Part shown: piece after piece, positions 14,217 to 25,412 of the stretch
Layout: every line of letters starts with the position of its first letter
Position numbering within the stretch: the stretch's first letter is position 1
Virus record (IMG/VR): IMGVR_UViG_3300046009_004287
Location: 1-25,472 of that record
DNA length: 25,472 bases
Direction: 5' to 3' (one strand)
Source of the DNA: a virus
The notes under the pieces: model-generated
Seen by the model: only the letters and a program-made list of their open reading frames with translations
What the model was told of the DNA's origin: nothing
Databases searched by the model: none
Position numbers and translations under genes: made by a program

Positions 14217-17200
14217 TTAACCATATTCAACCATTTCTTTATACAACGCTTCCAAACCAGGAGTTATATACTCGGGTGGTCTTTCTGCGGTATCTCTGTT
14301 CAGGACTAAAACCATCGACGCACTGTTATCCTTGTGGAATAGATGTTTGATTGCGGTAATTAACCATTTTCCGTGTGTATTTTTTTCTTGTTTTGGTAAA
14401 CTTGGACTAATTGCACCGTAATGATTAGTTTTAATCAACATACCAACCTTTGGTATAGAAGTATAGGGAACCATGATTGACATTTGTTGTGCGCTCATTT
14501 GTGTCATTTGTGCAACTCTATTAAGTGGTGTTGCCAATGGTGTATCCCAGAAATTTGAATATGTTCTATTATATTCAAGATATTCTTTGAACTTGCTATT
14601 CTGACACGGACAAATACAACTACAGGGAGCATCTGGATCACTCCATACACATCCAAGATACTCTTCCCCAAGAACTGTCTTGATTAATTCACATTCCTTT
14701 AGTTCTTGCCATTTGCAGAAAAGATCTATGTAACTTGGTTCTGGTTCTTTGGGTTTTTTGTCTTTACACGGACAATTGCAATAAGGATCATTTTGTGGGC
14801 ATCCACTATATCCTATTGGTGCCTCTGGATTTGCACATACAAATCCTTCACAAATCTTAGATTTTCTAGTAAAGACTAAAAACTGAGCTGAGAAATTATT
14901 ATCAAAAAGATCATAATTTGGTTTCATGGTTGGGGGCGAAACCATACCATAATCGCTCTCTCCACTTAAATCATATTTCCATACATCTTCTGTAACCAAT
15001 CCCGGTCTATAGAGCAAGAAGTTTGCTTTCATCCAATTCATTGTTGTTTCGTAGAACCACCCAGCACCCGCCCCACCAATGTTATTCGAATCGTGAACTT
15101 TTGCATAATCGCTTCTATTTGCATCGCTGATCGCACTTAAAACTTTTAAACCGCTTAACTGTGCTCTACCAGTTGGTGTCAAACGCAACCATCTGTCAAG
15201 ATCACTCCCATACCACCAGACATAATCTTTCCATTTATATCCCATTAGATCTCCAATAATTCCACTGTTTTCTCCGTTTTCTATTTCTCCAAATTTTACG
15301 GATAAAATATGAAATAGATCTTGTGGTATAAAGATATTCTTGGGTATATGGAATGACCACCAACTTCTATGTGGTTTTATTCTTTTATGTGAATACTGAA
15401 GATATCCACTTCCATGTGCGCTTTCTTTGTATTCTGGATCTACATCTGCAGATCTAGTATACCAATCGTAATTATTAACATTTTCCTTAAATGCATCATT
15501 ACCTTTACCACCTTCTCCATGATACCAACCATTATTCCACCACCACCCCTTCGGATCTGTGGTATAATATGGGAAAGCGGTTTCAAATCCGACTTCTGGC
15601 CAAAGATCCATTCCGTTGTTTGATAATGATGTATCATTTAAATTTCTATAATCGTCCCACCAGGCCCATTGCTTATCTGTTTCTTCGTCACTTACATTGC
15701 TTTTCTTAATCGCAACATCAAACCCATATGGATCTTGTCCTATTACTGCAATATTATTTCTTACTGTTTGTCTTCCTGTTGGTCCTGGCGTTAACGATAC
15801 CAAATACGGCAAGAAATACTCAGTTCCAGCATCTCTAACAAATGAATCTGGGAAATCCTGAATACTTTCTAATCCAATTGGAGATTCAAATTCTATTCTC
15901 ACATAAGAAGATAATTGTTCATTTTTAAGATTTGGAGGAATAGAAGAACCCCCTATTGAAAATATATCATATGCAGTACTATAATCTGAGGGGTTTGTAT
16001 TTATGTTTAAATCATATTGAGTTTGTGGTGCCAATTGATCTACGGAAAAAAGATTTCCCCCTAGAACTTGATCTATTGGTAGACTTATATGAGATTTCTC
16101 TGTAAAGTAAGAAGAAAGGTTTCCACAATTTGCAGGGCTATATTGAGAAGTAAACGGAAAATCATTATATGGATTTGAATTATTGTAAAGATAATTTCTG
16201 TATAATTTTCTTTGTGTTTTAAATGAATTAGCGTCGTAGGTTTGAGTGTAATATGGGTGTCTTGATCCACCAGACGAACTATTTGCAAAGAAGAAATTGT
16301 ATAACCAACTTCCAACATTTGCTCCAGTTACACCTCTATTTCTTGCTAGAAGTTCATATCTGCTTCCTCTTATTGGTTTTCTCTTTATGGTTTTGATATT
16401 ATAAAGTGATTTAGGAGTAGATATTGGAGTAAGTCTACCATTTTTAATGCTTCCTGGAATTCCAGTAGATAGATCAGTAAACACATTCTTTCCTGGAATC
16501 TTTGAATAGAAGAAAGATTTTCTGTTCCACCATTCCTCATAATTTTGATTGAATGTTGTTATAAAGTTTGTTTGAAATATATTTCTAGAATATTCTAGTA
16601 ATTTAATTTCAGCATCAATTACTTTTATTTCTTCTTCTGCTCTTCTTTTTTCGACTTCGAGATATAGAGGATTGAAGCATAGAACATTATAACAGTCTCC
16701 ATTTGCTATACAATCCAATGTAGTTTGTCTGTCTCCATAATCATTTGGACCAATATAATCATCTGCATCCGAGAAGGCACTTCCGCCGCCGGGGGTGTAT
16801 CTATAATTAAAATACCAATTAGATTCTGATCCAAGATATTGAATCAATTTTTTCATAAATTTTTCACCAGAGCAGGTCTTGACCCAACCCGGTAAAGGTG
16901 AATATGTTTTTGCTTCATTTGCAGTGCAGTTACAGCAATTTATTTGATCAAATTCTTTGTCTGCATTAGTTTCAACAAAATTATTGCATTTTCTACACAT
17001 TCCTTCTGGGAGAGTAATGAGTGGGACATTTCCTAGTCCATCAACATAGTTGAATCCAACACAAGCAGAAGGTTCCCGAGAAAAAACACTACCCGTAAGA
17101 GTATCAGTACACCCCTCGCGCAAACATGGACCGGTTCCTTCTTCGCATAAATCATAATTATCTTGTTGAACGGATCCAGTTCCACCCTTACAATAATTTA

Positions 17201-20147
17201 TTTGAAAACAGGACAATCCTTTGTAGAAGGTTGTTCTGTTTGGATCTCCAAGAGTATTAGCCCTAGCAGCACATTCCTGATAAGTGTACCCATCAAGACA
17301 TGCACACTTTACATTATTTCCACCAGGTTCTGGATCTGGACAATCCTCACAGCATGCACCAGAATTATCAAAATTAGCACATCCATAACATCCTCCAAGA
17401 CCTATAGGTATTGTATTAGTTGTATAACTAGCACCATCCCAATCTGGATTTTGATTGAATATGTAGGATCTTATAGTAGCATTTCCTAAAAAGTAGGTTA
17501 TGTGATCCTGTATTATATTTTCCCAATCCGCTTGATCTTCCTCGCAGAGACATTTACATGGAAGTTCAACACCGCCAGCATTAAGTGTCGCTTTATGAGT
17601 AAAGGTACATTCTCCAATTCCACATTGTGAATATTGTTGACAGTCCTCCAAACTTTTAAATGATGGTGCTTGTGAAGAGGGAAAAGACTGCGCTATACAA
17701 CTACCGGATCCAGGACAGACATACCACAAAGAATCTTCCTGACAAGACAATACACAAGAAACCCGATCACTAAAATCTCCATCCTTACAATCCAAATATT
17801 TGGGTGGAAACCCAGGTTCTAGGCCCCGGTAGTACGATGTGCACTTTCCCCCGTCGCATGTCCAGCACTGACAAAAGCTGGCGGGAGGACACCCAAAGCA
17901 GCAGCTGTCTATAAATGATTGTTCCGGTTCACACTCTTCAGAGCAAAAACCATTTACACAACACGCACTATCGCAATCTGAACACTCTACTCCAGAGAAA
18001 GCTTGCAATGAACTACTAGATCCACCTCCCCCACCCCCGGCACCTCCGCCGGCTCCATTTAGAGGTCCTGGAGTTGTACTACCGGCCGGACCAGCTCCAA
18101 CTCGCGGATATGGATAACAACATGGAAGTAATCTATCAGTAATCCATTGATCTGCTTGTGTAATATACGATGAAACATTGGCAATAAATTGTTGTGCAGA
18201 AGTTTTTCTATCTTGTAAATCTTGTATTACTTGATTGTATTGATTGATGCCTCTTTGTAATACATTATTTTTATACTTTGTAATATTTCTATCTAAATTA
18301 TAAAATTCACCTATTGTTTGTTTTAACCATACATTGGGATTAAAGAATGAGGATGGAGTTCCTCCATCTAAAACCCCAGCTGGCGTTTTGATGTTTGGGC
18401 TATCTAAATTTACAGAAAGAGTTAATCCGTGTTGAATACACTCATTTTCTTTATCGTAATCTAGTAAATCAGTAAACGAACCGGCCGCGACAACCCTATA
18501 TTCTTCGTTTCCTTTATAGATTCCATTCTCACCAAAAAGAAAATTATAAACATCACCACTAATTCCTAATTGTGCTGGATTTATACAACCAAGATTTCCG
18601 GTAAATCCACAAGCAGATCCAATAGATTGCAAGGACTCTAATTGTTGTTTATCCTTTATTCCATAATCAAAACCATTGAAGCAGCAAACCACACAACGGT
18701 ATACTTCCCACCGTCGTTTAAGATTTTTCATTTTTACAAATTCTTTTCTCTTATCTTCCAATGGTTCTCTAATTTTAGTTTGAATTAGATGAAGTTTTTT
18801 AATTTCTAGTTCGGTGATATCAAATTGGGGTTGCCATGCGATATTTGACCATCTGGAATCTTCTTTTCTATCAACATAATCCCACCAAACTATTTTTGGA
18901 TTATCAGGTTTTGCTCCAAACCCTCTGTCTGCAGAATAATGTATTCCACTTTCAAATGGATTATTTAAAGTATTTAATTCGTAAAATCCCCAAACCGAAT
19001 CCGTTGCTAATCGTGAGGGTTTTGTTATTTTCTTTTTTTTGTTTAAAATTGATCCAGTATCAACATCTTCTGGTATTAATTTATATTGTTCAACGTGATT
19101 TACTTTGGCAAAATCTCTATGATAATCGTAATCTACTATTGAATAGGTAAACCCTTCAATCGAACTCATAAAATCAAAGTAAGGATCATTATAATTTGGT
19201 TTTTGTGAGATGTAGTGAGAGTAAAATGCTCTGCTATTTGTTAGAGAAAGTAAATCATTTTGATTTGTGATGGATACCGAAATTACTCTGCTTAATTTTT
19301 GTTCTGGACCCTGGAGATCGTCAGTATTAAGATCGAAGGTTGGTGGACTTTCATTTTCAGATTGTTCCTGTAGAATTTTTTCTATAGATTTAAAGTGCCA
19401 TCCGTCTCTATCTTGCCAGAAACAAAAATTAACAGCATTTGTGTTTATTTTAGAAACAGAATAGTTTGTCACAAACTTTATCAAAGACATTATATCGATC
19501 TGTCCCTGATTGACTCCGGTTGGATAGCTAATATCTTTATGCTTTAACCAAATACCATTTTTTGTTCCTTCTATTTCTACTGGACTTAATCCTAATTTTA
19601 AGGAAAGTTCATTTATAAGACCTGGTATTTTATTTTGATTTGAACCAGATTGTTCTTCCTCATCCGAACCAATTGAAATATATCCAATAAAGTCTTTATC
19701 TAGATTTAAAAATGAAGTACTGAATATTTTATCAAAAAATTCAGAAGACATGAATTCCATTCTATAAACAATATGCTTATCTGCAACCCCATATCTTAAT
19801 TCATTTACATTTGCAAAATCATTTATAATTTTAGAGGAAACAATTGTGAACTTCAATTCAACTGGACTTTGGTTTACTGGAAGATCGATATAACCAAACT
19901 TTATTATTATCTTCTCACCACCAACGATATTCATTTGACCTACCCAGTCATTTCTATCCACAACTTCAATATAACCAGTCATATAACCAGTGGAAAGATT
20001 TTCTTCAAAACTCAAAACCTTCAACATACTTTCACCAGAACCACTGGTTTCTGCTGAAACTATATGAAAAATTTCTTCATCTTTTTCTATTGCGATAGAA
20101 CTAAGAGCGGATATGAACTGATTTGGGTTATCTGTTATTTGCGGCAT
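14217..20147 (-). CDS. Giant baseplate hub protein: gp27-like ends around a very large cysteine-rich insert
   Basis: This 1976-residue protein begins three bases after gp53 (GAGAG upstream). Residues 1-310 resemble the gp27-type hub fold: 'VLSFEENLSTGYMTGYIEVVDRN', 'GGEKIIIKF', 'YRMEFMSSEFFDK', 'NFCFWQDRDGWHFKSI'. The last 110 residues ('SIPKVGMLIKT', 'GKWLITAIKHLFHKD', 'MVLVLNRDTAE') look like the closing hub strands. Between them are helical, possibly coiled-coil stretches (447-482, 612-660, 1160-1192), a Gly/Ser linker (696-714), Cys-rich blocks (720-870, 920-1075, 1766-1848) and Trp/Tyr-rich sequence (1490-1720). I count about 70 cysteines. T4 gp27 is 391 residues. No lysozyme domain is evident. 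The long proteins called VrlC in cyanophages are a possible comparison. The hub role is fairly sure; the insert's function is unknown. Confidence 0.8.
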   Translation of the reverse strand: MPQITDNPNQFISALSSIAIEKDEEIFHIVSAETSGSGESMLKVLSFEENLSTGYMTGYIEVVDRNDWVGQMNIVGGEKIIIKFGYIDLPVNQSPVELKFTIVSSKIINDFANVNELRYGVADKHIVYRMEFMSSEFFDKIFSTSFLNLDKDFIGYISIGSDEEEQSGSNQNKIPGLINELSLKLGLSPVEIEGTKNGIWLKHKDISYPTGVNQGQIDIMSLIKFVTNYSVSKINTNAVNFCFWQDRDGWHFKSIEKILQEQSENESPPTFDLNTDDLQGPEQKLSRVISVSITNQNDLLSLTNSRAFYSHYISQKPNYNDPYFDFMSSIEGFTYSIVDYDYHRDFAKVNHVEQYKLIPEDVDTGSILNKKKKITKPSRLATDSVWGFYELNTLNNPFESGIHYSADRGFGAKPDNPKIVWWDYVDRKEDSRWSNIAWQPQFDITELEIKKLHLIQTKIREPLEDKRKEFVKMKNLKRRWEVYRCVVCCFNGFDYGIKDKQQLESLQSIGSACGFTGNLGCINPAQLGISGDVYNFLFGENGIYKGNEEYRVVAAGSFTDLLDYDKENECIQHGLTLSVNLDSPNIKTPAGVLDGGTPSSFFNPNVWLKQTIGEFYNLDRNITKYKNNVLQRGINQYNQVIQDLQDRKTSAQQFIANVSSYITQADQWITDRLLPCCYPYPRVGAGPAGSTTPGPLNGAGGGAGGGGGGSSSSLQAFSGVECSDCDSACCVNGFCSEECEPEQSFIDSCCFGCPPASFCQCWTCDGGKCTSYYRGLEPGFPPKYLDCKDGDFSDRVSCVLSCQEDSLWYVCPGSGSCIAQSFPSSQAPSFKSLEDCQQYSQCGIGECTFTHKATLNAGGVELPCKCLCEEDQADWENIIQDHITYFLGNATIRSYIFNQNPDWDGASYTTNTIPIGLGGCYGCANFDNSGACCEDCPDPEPGGNNVKCACLDGYTYQECAARANTLGDPNRTTFYKGLSCFQINYCKGGTGSVQQDNYDLCEEGTGPCLREGCTDTLTGSVFSREPSACVGFNYVDGLGNVPLITLPEGMCRKCNNFVETNADKEFDQINCCNCTANEAKTYSPLPGWVKTCSGEKFMKKLIQYLGSESNWYFNYRYTPGGGSAFSDADDYIGPNDYGDRQTTLDCIANGDCYNVLCFNPLYLEVEKRRAEEEIKVIDAEIKLLEYSRNIFQTNFITTFNQNYEEWWNRKSFFYSKIPGKNVFTDLSTGIPGSIKNGRLTPISTPKSLYNIKTIKRKPIRGSRYELLARNRGVTGANVGSWLYNFFFANSSSGGSRHPYYTQTYDANSFKTQRKLYRNYLYNNSNPYNDFPFTSQYSPANCGNLSSYFTEKSHISLPIDQVLGGNLFSVDQLAPQTQYDLNINTNPSDYSTAYDIFSIGGSSIPPNLKNEQLSSYVRIEFESPIGLESIQDFPDSFVRDAGTEYFLPYLVSLTPGPTGRQTVRNNIAVIGQDPYGFDVAIKKSNVSDEETDKQWAWWDDYRNLNDTSLSNNGMDLWPEVGFETAFPYYTTDPKGWWWNNGWYHGEGGKGNDAFKENVNNYDWYTRSADVDPEYKESAHGSGYLQYSHKRIKPHRSWWSFHIPKNIFIPQDLFHILSVKFGEIENGENSGIIGDLMGYKWKDYVWWYGSDLDRWLRLTPTGRAQLSGLKVLSAISDANRSDYAKVHDSNNIGGAGAGWFYETTMNWMKANFLLYRPGLVTEDVWKYDLSGESDYGMVSPPTMKPNYDLFDNNFSAQFLVFTRKSKICEGFVCANPEAPIGYSGCPQNDPYCNCPCKDKKPKEPEPSYIDLFCKWQELKECELIKTVLGEEYLGCVWSDPDAPCSCICPCQNSKFKEYLEYNRTYSNFWDTPLATPLNRVAQMTQMSAQQMSIMVPYTSIPKVGMLIKTNHYGAISPSLPKQEKNTHGKWLITAIKHLFHKDNSASMVLVLNRDTAERPPEYITPGLEALYKEMVEYG

Positions 20148-21997: not shown

Positions 21998-22429
21998 ATG
22001 GCATATAAGACGAAATATATCCCAACTAATCCCACCAAATATGTAGGTGATATTAATTTAATTTGTTGCCGTTCTCTCTGGGAAAGGAAATTTTGTAAAT
22101 ACCTAGACACCAATAAGAATGTTGTAAGGTGGTCATTCGAAAGTATCAAAATACCATATGTTTCTCCTATAGATAATAAAATTAAAAATTACATACCAGA
22201 TTTTATAGTAGAAACACGAAATAAAGACGGATCTATTGAAACTAAAATCGTAGAAATCAAACCAAAAAAACAAACACTAGAACCTGTAATCGGAAAGAAA
22301 CATAAAAGAACACTATTAAATGAATCGTTGACTTATCAAGTCAATAAGGCAAAATGGGAGTCGGCTATGAAATTTTGTGAAAAAAATAATATAAAGTTTA
22401 AAATTATAACTGAGGAGGATTTGTTCTAA
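21998..22429 (+). CDS. 4: Head completion nuclease, gp4-like
   Basis: This 143-residue protein matches T4 gp4 (also called gp50/65), a late head-completion protein with a restriction-endonuclease-like fold thought to trim DNA before tail joining. Seen: 'YIPTNPTKYVGDINLICCRSLWERKF' (split, 7-32), then 'YIPDFIVE' (65-72) and 'IVEIKPKKQTLEP' (84-96). The candidate PD-(D/E)xK residues are E29, D68, E86 and K88, all present, so the protein looks catalytically intact. The end, 'AKWESAMKFCEKNNIKFKIITEEDL', is the usual closing helix and strand. It starts the plus-strand cluster and overlaps the next gene by one base (TAATG). No good ribosome binding site is visible. Confidence 0.9.
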   Translation: MAYKTKYIPTNPTKYVGDINLICCRSLWERKFCKYLDTNKNVVRWSFESIKIPYVSPIDNKIKNYIPDFIVETRNKDGSIETKIVEIKPKKQTLEPVIGKKHKRTLLNESLTYQVNKAKWESAMKFCEKNNIKFKIITEEDLF

Positions 22430-23064
22430 TGGATAGAACCGCTAAAAGCATAACCGACTATAGAGCTAAAATTGCACAATATGGTGGCCCCCAGATACCA
22501 AGTAGATATAAAGTTTCTTTTTCATTTAGAGGTGTAGATGAAATTAAAACATATTATCCAGAAAGTATATCTCTTCCGGCTAGAGCATTCAATGTTACTC
22601 CATTTTCTTATTGGGGTCCAGACTACCTAATACCATCAAAACGAGACTACGGTGAATGTGCAATGTCATTCATTATAATGCAAGACTGGGAAGAACGAAG
22701 ATATTTTGAAAAATGGATGGATAATGTAATTACTGTAAAGGGAAGGGGAGGTCGAACTCCAGGTCTTACCAGTAGTTCATTTGGAAGTCTTTTTGGCATC
22801 ATTCCTGACGTATTTCCATCTCAAGCAGGAACAAGCGACGTTAATCAATCAGAATATCCAGACATAGCAATGCCTTATGAAAAGTTTGCAGGAACTATTG
22901 GTATTCAATGTTTGAATACAGAACATAATAAAGGCCCAAATGCAATATTCACTCTACATGATGCATACCCAACAACAATAACAACCACAAATTTGGCCGC
23001 CGAAGCAAATTCTTATGGAACATTTGTTGTTGTTTTTAGCTTTAGATATTATACAATGATATAA
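22429..23064 (+). CDS. Tail-tube-fold protein (gp19/gp54-like)
   Basis: This 211-residue protein starts in a TAATG overlap with gp4, with a strong AGGAGG at 22413-22418 inside the end of gp4. The sequence reads as a tail tube fold: 'IPSRYKVSFSFRGVDEIKTYYPESISLPARAFN' (split, about 22-54), 'SKRDYGECAMSFIIMQDWEERRYFEKWMDNV' (69-99), and final strands 'GTIGIQCLN...AIFTLHDAYPTTI' and 'TFVVVFSFRYYTM'. T4 gp19 (tube) is 163 residues, and gp48/gp54 use the same fold. Its place among baseplate and hub-assembly genes, away from any sheath gene in the window, makes a baseplate tube-initiator (gp54 role) as likely as the main tube subunit. The function is tail-tube structure either way. Confidence 0.75.
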   Translation: MDRTAKSITDYRAKIAQYGGPQIPSRYKVSFSFRGVDEIKTYYPESISLPARAFNVTPFSYWGPDYLIPSKRDYGECAMSFIIMQDWEERRYFEKWMDNVITVKGRGGRTPGLTSSSFGSLFGIIPDVFPSQAGTSDVNQSEYPDIAMPYEKFAGTIGIQCLNTEHNKGPNAIFTLHDAYPTTITTTNLAAEANSYGTFVVVFSFRYYTMI

Positions 23065-23074
23065 GGAGATTTGA

Positions 23075-23785
23075 ATGCCACTTGTTGATATGTTAAAAAC
23101 CACATTACCAAAATATTCAGAAACGATTCCGTCAACTGGTAAGAAAATTTACTATAGACCATTTTTAGTAAAAGAAGAAAAAACACTATTGATGGCGCAA
23201 GAAGTCGGGGATGAAGAGAGTGTCTTATTGGCAATAAAGGAAATAATAGAATCTTGCTTTCCCGATATAAAGGATGCATCAAAAATACCATTATTTGATT
23301 TAGAATACCTCTTTTTAAAATTAAGAGCGAAATCTGTAATGGAAATTGCAAATCCAATTTTAATATGTCCAGATACAAAGGAAAAGGTTAAATTAGTCAT
23401 AAATCTAAACAACATAAAAGTTAAGACCGATAAAACTCATACAACTGAATTACAAATATCGAATGACATAATAATTGGAATGAAATATCCATCCTTGAGT
23501 ACTCTGTTGGAGAAAAATTTAAATTCAGCAAGTCTGATGGATTTCTATGAAATGGCAATAAACTGTATAAAGTTTGTACAAACAAAAGAGGAAAAGATAG
23601 AAACCGATAGTCTTTCAAAAGAAGAAGTCAAAGCATTCGTTGATTCAATGACAAAACCTCAATTTGATAAAATCATAGAGTTCTTTGCAACTATGCCCAG
23701 AATAGAAGAAGAAATAGAATATAAAACTTCGGACGGAGTTACTAGAAAGGTTTTACTGAAAGGAATAAAGGATTTTTTCGAATAA
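23075..23785 (+). CDS. 26: gp26-like baseplate hub assembly / tail chaperone-type protein
   Basis: This 236-residue protein has an excellent ribosome binding site (AAGGAG, six bases before ATG). It belongs to the T4 gp26-type baseplate family: 'KKIYYRPFLVKEEKTLLMAQE' (split, 23-43), 'AIKEIIESCFPD' (53-64), 'IPLFDLEYLFLKLRAKSVMEIA' (split, 71-92) and 'ICPDTKEKVKLVINL' (97-111). In T4, gp26 is needed for hub assembly. The C-terminal 60 residues ('LSKEEVKAFVDSMTKPQFDKI', split) form an alpha-helical region. The gene ends with GAT TTT TTC GAA TAA, which contains T TTT TTC, a canonical -1 slippery heptamer. The -1 frame stays open into the next small gene. Its position directly before a tape-measure-like gene is that of lambda gpG, so it may act as a tail assembly chaperone. 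Confidence 0.85.
   Translation: MPLVDMLKTTLPKYSETIPSTGKKIYYRPFLVKEEKTLLMAQEVGDEESVLLAIKEIIESCFPDIKDASKIPLFDLEYLFLKLRAKSVMEIANPILICPDTKEKVKLVINLNNIKVKTDKTHTTELQISNDIIIGMKYPSLSTLLEKNLNSASLMDFYEMAINCIKFVQTKEEKIETDSLSKEEVKAFVDSMTKPQFDKIIEFFATMPRIEEEIEYKTSDGVTRKVLLKGIKDFFE
23773..23779 (+). other. Probable -1 ribosomal frameshift site (T TTT TTC)
   Basis: In the gp26-like frame the codons are GAT TTT TTC GAA TAA, so the heptamer has the X XXY YYZ form with the zero-frame codons TTT and TTC. The zero-frame stop follows one codon later. After a -1 slip the next codon is CGA (23779-23781) and the frame is open for 73 codons to the TGA at 23998-24000. The product would be a 308-residue fusion of gp26-like residues 1-235 with the downstream small protein. 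GCCTCAG, starting six bases after the heptamer, is complementary to CTGAGGC at 23911-23917, a possible stimulatory long-range stem. Confidence 0.6.
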
Positions 23786-23856
23786 GCCTCAGTCATATTT
23801 CATTAGACAATGTTTTTGATATAAATTTCAAATTAACAATTATATTAAAACAGAAC

Positions 23857-24000
23857 ATGTCAGAAATGCAAGAAATGATACCTTGGGAAAGAGACATTTA
23901 TCTTGATATGCTGAGGCGACACATCGAAGACGAGAACTTAAAATTGAAAACTGCAAAAAATGATACAATGACAAGTAACGCATTAAGGAGAAATAGATGA
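23857..24000 (+). CDS. Small protein, probably the -1 frameshift extension of the gp26-like gene
   Basis: The frame from ATG 23857 encodes 47 residues: 'MSEMQEMIPWERDIYLDMLR', then 'RHIEDENLKLK' and a basic end 'NALRRNR'. The same frame is open upstream without an in-frame stop through at least 23779, and no Shine-Dalgarno sequence precedes this ATG, unlike most plus-strand neighbours. Both facts favour production as a C-terminal extension of the gp26-like protein by -1 frameshifting (73 residues beyond the slip). The 'IPWERDIYLDMLRRHIEDE' segment looks like a short amphipathic helix with a Pro-Trp start, as seen in the T-type halves of tail assembly chaperones. The stop overlaps the next ATG (ATGA). 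In lambda-like phages the GT fusion binds the tape measure; the same role is inferred here. Confidence 0.7.
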   Translation: MSEMQEMIPWERDIYLDMLRRHIEDENLKLKTAKNDTMTSNALRRNR

Positions 24001-25412
24001 AAGAAAAAGATCTAGAAAGTTTAAAAGAAAAAATGATGGGTGTTTTTTCTCCATACATGAACTCCAATGATCTGGTAATGGATGAAGTTGAACTTCGATC
24101 ATTTCCAACAACAGTAATACCAAAAATTGAATCTGAATCTCCTCTACAAGCACCCAATGATCCTGTAAATTTAAATGTTACTATAAATCAAAATTCAAGA
24201 ACACCCATATCATTAAATCCAATAAACATCAAAAGCAATAACAAGACTGTTAATGTTAATTTAAAAAAAAATGAAACAGTGATTGATAATATACTTTCTT
24301 CTAAGTTATCAGAATTAATCAAAGAAGAAAAAAATGTTATACTTAGAGAAAAGATGGTTAAGTTATACGAAAAGAACAAATCATCTATTATTTCTATTCC
24401 AATGTCTTTTATTACCAAAACACCCTATAGTTTTACTACAAATGTTGGTAATTATTATATTGAGACACCAAGTATAAAAGAAAAACAAGATAAAAGATCT
24501 TTCCAGAATTCTGCATCAAAAGTTAAATTAAAAGAATTGGAAATGCGAAAATCACAAGAGGTTGATTATCAATTGCCAAAAATGCAAGTGCAAAAATCAC
24601 AAGAGGTTGATTATCAAGTTCCAAAAATGCAAGTGCAAAAATCACAAGAGGTTGATTATCAAGTTCCAAAAATATCAGATGATGAATTTAATTCCTTTGA
24701 CGAAAAGGAAAAAATGATTCTCAAACAACTATTCAATGCAACATATAATTTACAACAAATTAAAAATTTCAATGATGAGCAATTGGATTCTAAATCATAT
24801 GAATTTACCAAAAATGAAACCTATGTTGCAGTTGATCTCAATAAAGAAAAGAAAGAAAAATTAAACTTTAAATCACTTAAAAATAGATTAATAAGTAAAC
24901 AAAAAGCAAAACTATTAAAGGATAAAAAGGATAATACAAAAACAATAATACCTGCTTTCTCTACAGGTGCAATTATATCTTCTCCAACTTTTGCACTCGT
25001 TGGAGAAAATAGACCAGAAATGATAACACCAATTGAAATTAATGTAGAAAAATATTGGAATCTTCCAAGTGGCAGAATAAACACTGAAATGGCTGCCAAT
25101 GGTACATCTTTAAATTCGATACAACCAAATTACGAAAATAAAGTTTCCGATGCTATTTCCAATAATTATAAAATGAAAGAAGAAACTACAGCTTCGTCTA
25201 CATTACAGACAATGTACGACGAAAGCGAAGATCCTAAGAATCAAAATACAGAAAGAAATAAAAATCACAGAAGTGCGAATCCAAACGTCGGTAGACCACA
25301 AACCAACATGTATGATTTTAAAGATCAAAAGCAAGTGACATCATCTACCAGTATTCTAAACTTTTTGATGGGAATCAATACTATTCCTGTTCATAGACAA
25401 TTTCATATGTAA
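23997..25412 (+). CDS. Tape-measure-like protein
   Basis: This 471-residue protein starts in an ATGA overlap with the small frame, with AAGGAG seven bases upstream. The only family signal I see is 'AFSTGAIISSPTFALVGENRPEMITP' (split, 320-345), matching the 'GGIv..PTlAlVGE.GPEaviP' signature near the C-terminus of many tape-measure proteins. The rest is Lys/Glu/Asn-rich, helical and low complexity. Residues about 185-225 contain a 15-residue unit ('KSQEVDYQVPKMQVQ') repeated nearly three times. No transmembrane segment is obvious. At about 0.15 nm per residue, 471 residues would span about 70 nm if it alone set tail length. Position after the gp26-like and frameshift genes supports a tape-measure or gp29-like role; the short length leaves doubt. 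Confidence 0.65.
   Translation: MKEKDLESLKEKMMGVFSPYMNSNDLVMDEVELRSFPTTVIPKIESESPLQAPNDPVNLNVTINQNSRTPISLNPINIKSNNKTVNVNLKKNETVIDNILSSKLSELIKEEKNVILREKMVKLYEKNKSSIISIPMSFITKTPYSFTTNVGNYYIETPSIKEKQDKRSFQNSASKVKLKELEMRKSQEVDYQLPKMQVQKSQEVDYQVPKMQVQKSQEVDYQVPKISDDEFNSFDEKEKMILKQLFNATYNLQQIKNFNDEQLDSKSYEFTKNETYVAVDLNKEKKEKLNFKSLKNRLISKQKAKLLKDKKDNTKTIIPAFSTGAIISSPTFALVGENRPEMITPIEINVEKYWNLPSGRINTEMAANGTSLNSIQPNYENKVSDAISNNYKMKEETTASSTLQTMYDESEDPKNQNTERNKNHRSANPNVGRPQTNMYDFKDQKQVTSSTSILNFLMGINTIPVHRQFHM
24549..24671 (+). repeat. 45-bp tandem repeat (2.7 copies) inside the tape-measure-like gene
   Basis: Copies begin at 24549, 24594 and 24639; the third is cut after 33 bases. Each unit encodes KSQEVDYQ(L/V)PKMQVQ. 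The first and second copies differ only at two bases (TTG versus GTT codon); the second and third are identical over 33 bases. Near identity at the DNA level points to recent duplication. The unit is a multiple of three, so copy-number change keeps the frame and would change protein length by 15 residues. Confidence 0.95.

Follow-up and report, generated by a model that had tools for sequence, protein, structure and literature searches.

In phage lambda, G/GT is a short reading frame near the end of which ribosomes slip by -1 at the heptamer G GGA AAG to give a longer minor form, and it lies just before the tape measure gene. A conserved -1 frameshift of long-tailed phages is said to have been described by Xu, Hendrix and Duda in 2004. 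For the T4-like phages, the identification of tail assembly chaperone genes is announced in the title of Vladimirov, Gautam & Davidson 2022 (Virology 566:9-15). According to PMC10885494, this work reports a short gene accompanied by a longer, fused one in some T4-like phages, and PMC12846349 refers to it for the presence of poly-T slippery sequences within the short-form genes of the T4-like group. Judging from the title, these citations and the matches of T4 gp51 given below, the genes meant by Vladimirov et al. are probably gp26 and gp51. The chaperone of Vandenendeviridae and Andersonviridae (PMC12846349), with the poly-T motif GTTTTT and an open -1 frame conserved in divergent genomes, is similar to our locus by its description and belongs to other phage families than that of the DNA studied here.

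The window analysed is the whole stretch of 25,472 nucleotides of viral DNA, positions 1 to 25,472 of the IMG/VR record IMGVR_UViG_3300046009_004287. On its plus strand, just downstream of a tail tube protein gene (22429..23064, phrog_45 tail tube, 1.6e-16), lies a gp26-family gene (23075..23785), which is preceded by an AAGGAG Shine-Dalgarno sequence and codes for 236 amino acids. Its product matched PF12322 over model positions 2-219 of 219 (1.1e-54, 185.9 bits, cut-off 24.5) as well as phrog_150 (4.2e-56), and from these families and the predicted fold we assign it as the putative short form of a tail assembly chaperone. The gene ends with GGA ATA AAG GAT TTT TTC GAA TAA. As the first-pass annotation had pointed out, the heptamer T TTT TTC (23773..23779, plus strand) stands close to the end of the short frame in the phase required for a tandem -1 slip. 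A single codon (GAA) separates it from the 0-frame stop TAA (23783..23785). The 73 open codons claimed for the -1 frame were found as well. This frame opens 37 nt upstream of the 0-frame stop, and the extension (23776..24001, plus strand) runs from the first post-slip Phe codon at 23776 to the TGA at 23999-24001, adding 73 residues after the slip to a predicted fusion of 235 + 73 = 308 amino acids. The -1 product matched phrog_634 'baseplate hub assembly catalyst' (gp51) from the first post-slip residue (5.6e-15), and this match together with the pN/pS values described below suggests that it is the C-terminal part of a long form. The short and long form and the poly-T slippery site are as in the T4-like chaperones of Vladimirov et al., as far as the citing papers present them. 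The layout, with a probable tape measure gene following, also resembles that of lambda G/GT, but the heptamer differs, and the relation to lambda rests on the layout and the predicted fold.

Our main reading, to which we give a probability of about 0.95, is that a -1 programmed ribosomal frameshift at this site yields a short and a long chaperone of the G/GT type; from the data below we infer the slippage and its frequency as well as the function as a chaperone. While translating the gp26-like gene, ribosomes would arrive at T TTT TTC, where the majority would continue in frame and terminate one codon on, releasing the short form. A minority would slip by -1, with the two tRNA-Phe re-pairing with TTT TTT, and would translate the gp51 frame to give the long form. 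By homology with the lambda G/GT type, the N-terminal domain shared by both forms would coat the tape measure protein, and the C-terminal extension of the minor form would recruit tail tube subunits.

To collect relatives we used viral contigs and genome contigs, most of them found through an alignment that ended before the 3′ end of gp26, with variants of the N-terminal gp26 peptides FRPFLVKE and FDIEYLFL as queries, so that the sampling was independent of the slip site. We added 15 loci that a previous full-length search had found and three loci of annotated phages, and identical loci were dropped, which left 122 distinct loci. Relatives from the site-independent search share only 36-57 % identity with the query. 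At the 3′ end of gp26, T TTT TTN stands in the -1 phase in every one of the 122 loci, a count taken over mutually related loci and not over independent events, and the open -1 frame is present along with the heptamer, as the first-pass annotation would have it for relatives. The T run is exactly 6 nt long in 110 of the 122, and the 0-frame stop follows one codon past the heptamer in 107. The same genes provided an internal control. For the last Phe-Phe pair of each frame, the codons are TTT TTC or TTT TTT in 119 of 121 genes, with a preceding T in 117, whereas the non-terminal Phe-Phe pairs show T TTT TT in only 4/121; the conserved Phe-Phe of the FFxTMP motif mostly uses the codons TTC TTT or TTT TTT. 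This difference (4/121 vs 122/122) rules out that the heptamer arose by chance. The heptamer was also found in phages of Vibrio, Aeromonas and Stenotrophomonas, in Sinorhizobium phage phiN3, Pseudomonas phage Astolliot and Methylophilales phage Melnitz-1. Within this branch of the T4-like phages the slip site is nearly universal. Directly visible in the compared sequences are the site itself, the degree to which it is conserved and the selection on the -1 frame.

The alternative that survives best, though we consider it very improbable, is that gp51 is an independent small gene translated from an internal ATG, either from its own ribosome binding site or by coupling to the termination of gp26. 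Separate gp51 genes are indeed given in the GenBank records of S-SSM7, P-SSM2, HTVC008M and phiN3, and many cyanophages have an ATG soon after the stop. However, several findings speak against such a start. In the window, the -1 frame has its first ATG at 23857, which is not preceded by a Shine-Dalgarno-like sequence, nor is one conserved among the relatives, in agreement with the initial claim that the small frame has no ribosome binding site of its own. Across the loci, the Shine-Dalgarno energy at the first gp51 ATGs (-1.0) is weaker than random (-2.4), whereas that at the gp26 starts (-4.2) is stronger. In the cyanophage group with a hairpin (see below) the ATG sits inside the stem. The -1 frame opens only at the heptamer itself in 19/122 loci, for example TGA TTT TTT CGG in L007 (our loci are numbered with an L). 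In a sample, the first 18 codons lack any ATG in 48 loci and any ATG, GTG or TTG in 32, and yet in the 32 start-less loci the pN/pS of these codons is 0.42 in the -1 frame against 1.37-1.60 in the other frames. The gp51 frame is, by this measure, selected as protein from the slip site onward. An independent gene would also leave the invariant heptamer unexplained. The absent starts, the absent Shine-Dalgarno sites and the selection upstream of any start lead us to reject the independent gp51 start, and the codon data are most simply explained if gp51 is produced by extending gp26.

Still less probable is that the long form results from transcriptional slippage at the T run instead of ribosomal slippage. 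A conserved T run does exist, but it is just 6 nt long in most loci and the usual sites of transcriptional slippage are longer. Moreover, the X XXY YYZ phase is always kept, which RNA polymerase would not need, and in some relatives a hairpin follows at a distance of 4-10 nt, which is the spacing of ribosomal frameshifting. A single gene split by a sequencing or assembly error has a negligible probability. One-base errors in T runs are a common error type, but the identical frame break is shared, at the same place, by more than 120 distinct contigs and by isolate genomes, which refutes it.

Within the frameshift reading, the role of the product was approached through structure. A sequence search for solved relatives of gp26 gave none that was credible. 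The AlphaFold2 model of the window gp26, built on a 26-sequence alignment, had a mean pLDDT of 88.2 and a pTM of 0.83, and its best match among PDB chains by VIA-align was the HK97 tail assembly chaperone 2OB9 (Z 7.8; 85 residues, rmsd 4.0, 9 % identity). The similarity covers gp26 residues 1-88 and the window protein has about 140 residues more. The second best was 3FGX (Z 7.2), named a phage tail assembly chaperone (PMC9603447), and the next row scored 4.5. The structural Z values are below 8 and the Foldseek E values of 0.44 and 1.4 are insignificant alone, so that the fold is to be taken as supporting and not as decisive. For the N-terminal domain common to both forms, the model gives moderate support to a chaperone fold. 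The chaperone role of gp26 proposed in the first-pass annotation is backed by this fold, with HK97 as the top match, and by the fusion seen in T4 gp51. Taking the predicted fold, the probable gene order and the short/long pair together, a G/GT-type chaperone appears to be the best-supported function.

The situation in T4 itself is different. There gp26 and gp51 each have a gene of their own, located on opposite strands, and gp26 ends with GAG TTC TTT GAG TTA CTA TAA, without the heptamer. T4 gp51 matched PF12322 with residues 1-201 (3.9e-52), phrog_150 with residues 3-248 (2.6e-84) and, in its C-terminal part, phrog_634 with residues 147-246 (1.2e-23). Consisting of a gp26-like body and the gp51 C-terminus, it looks like a long form encoded in one piece, and as its gp26-like domain carries the same tail, T4 seems to encode its short and long forms in separate genes. 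This agrees with the short and fused genes reported in PMC10885494 from the 2022 work. In T4 the gp26-like and gp51 parts are thus joined in frame and two genes serve the two forms, whereas in the window both parts lie in overlapping frames of one frameshifted locus. T4 gp26 also weakly matched the gp28 family phrog_1140 (9.4e-4), a hint in sequence that T4 gp28 may be a further gp26 paralogue.

A third arrangement was seen in Ackermannviridae (L139, L144, L145, L146), where GAN ATT TTC ATY TAA terminates the gp26 homologue and a gp51-like tail is encoded in the -1 frame. The pattern scan used here was loose and returned mostly chance matches, of which we kept only those with a gp51-like motif in the -1 frame. 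No X XXY YYZ heptamer was found at this junction, which is highly conserved as GAN ATT TTC ATY TAA T(T/G)T TTG AAA. Two genera have TAATG, where stop-start coupling is possible, and the others have TAATT. The proposal that gp26-type phages frameshift does not extend to all of them, given T4 with its separate genes and Ackermannviridae, which have a -1 tail without the canonical heptamer.

Regarding the sequence downstream of the slip site, the 42 nt starting 3 nt past the heptamer were, in 120 loci, more stable than redraws with synonymous codons (mean z -1.64), and strong stems were found in 46 % of loci against 10 % of synonymous shuffles, controls that overstate significance on related sequences. 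The signal peaks 13-43 nt from the heptamer start. The clearest group (L017, L018, L031, L066, L068, L075, L081, L082, L085, L089, L110, L115 and others) has a stem of 11 bp, or 12 in a few, which begins 4-5 nt past the heptamer. In 20 loci picked by the 5′ half only, 91.8 % of the pair cells were paired vs 28-43 % when the partner was slid, in a stem much of which barely varies. Three stem pairs show changes on both sides, with the compensatory variants GGCTCA/TGAGTC, GGCGCA/TGCGTC and GGCACA/TGTGTC. The ATG at which gp51 starts in the S-SSM7 annotation lies within the stem. In the window, the first 42 nt downstream of the slip site gave no hairpin signal (L001, identical there, had z +0.6), and its own branch shows no such stem. 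It is possible, and we propose it tentatively, that the chaperone frameshift of T4-like phages is tuned differently in different lineages. A part of the cyanophage-type phages would add a stimulatory hairpin, up to 11-12 bp long and placed 4-5 nt past the heptamer, with compensatory changes, hiding the annotated gp51 ATG, and the branch of the window would do without it. Ackermannviridae would make the same extension at the non-canonical ATT TTC ATY TAA, by a single-tRNA slip or by stop-start coupling.

The general suggestion of the first-pass annotation, that gp26-type proteins are frameshifted chaperones, is supported but is not new, as PMC10885494 and PMC12846349 cite Vladimirov et al. 2022 on these points. 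The principle is already known and, going by these citations, much of it was proposed in 2022. What is added here is the breadth of the comparison, the internal Phe-Phe control and the hairpin; the presence of the hairpin in part of the family and the Ackermannviridae relatives without a canonical heptamer are possible additions. In several phage records the 'baseplate hub assembly catalyst gp51' is entered as a separate gene, and it more probably represents the C-terminal portion of a chaperone made by frameshifting. For gp26 and gp51, two long-puzzling T4 proteins, this offers a clear function.

The gene following the extension (23997..25412, plus strand, 471 aa) is preceded by an AAGGAG Shine-Dalgarno sequence and its ATG at 23997 overlaps the TGA of the -1 frame. 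Family searches with its product gave no match. However, the segment PAFSTGAIISSPTFALVGENRPEMITPIE resembles a tape-measure motif and matches the corresponding gene of neighbours, and from its position after the chaperone and this one motif we regard the gene as a probable tape measure protein gene. The same gene contains tandem near-identical segments KSQEVDYQ(V/L)PKMQVQ at 24540-24680. Elsewhere in the window, the minus strand at 14217-20147 encodes a protein of 1976 aa with only a partial match to a phage tail protein (phrog_350, 2.7e-23), and the product of a gp4-type head closure gene at 21998-22429 matches a TnsA-like endonuclease N-terminal domain (PF08722, 2.7e-20).
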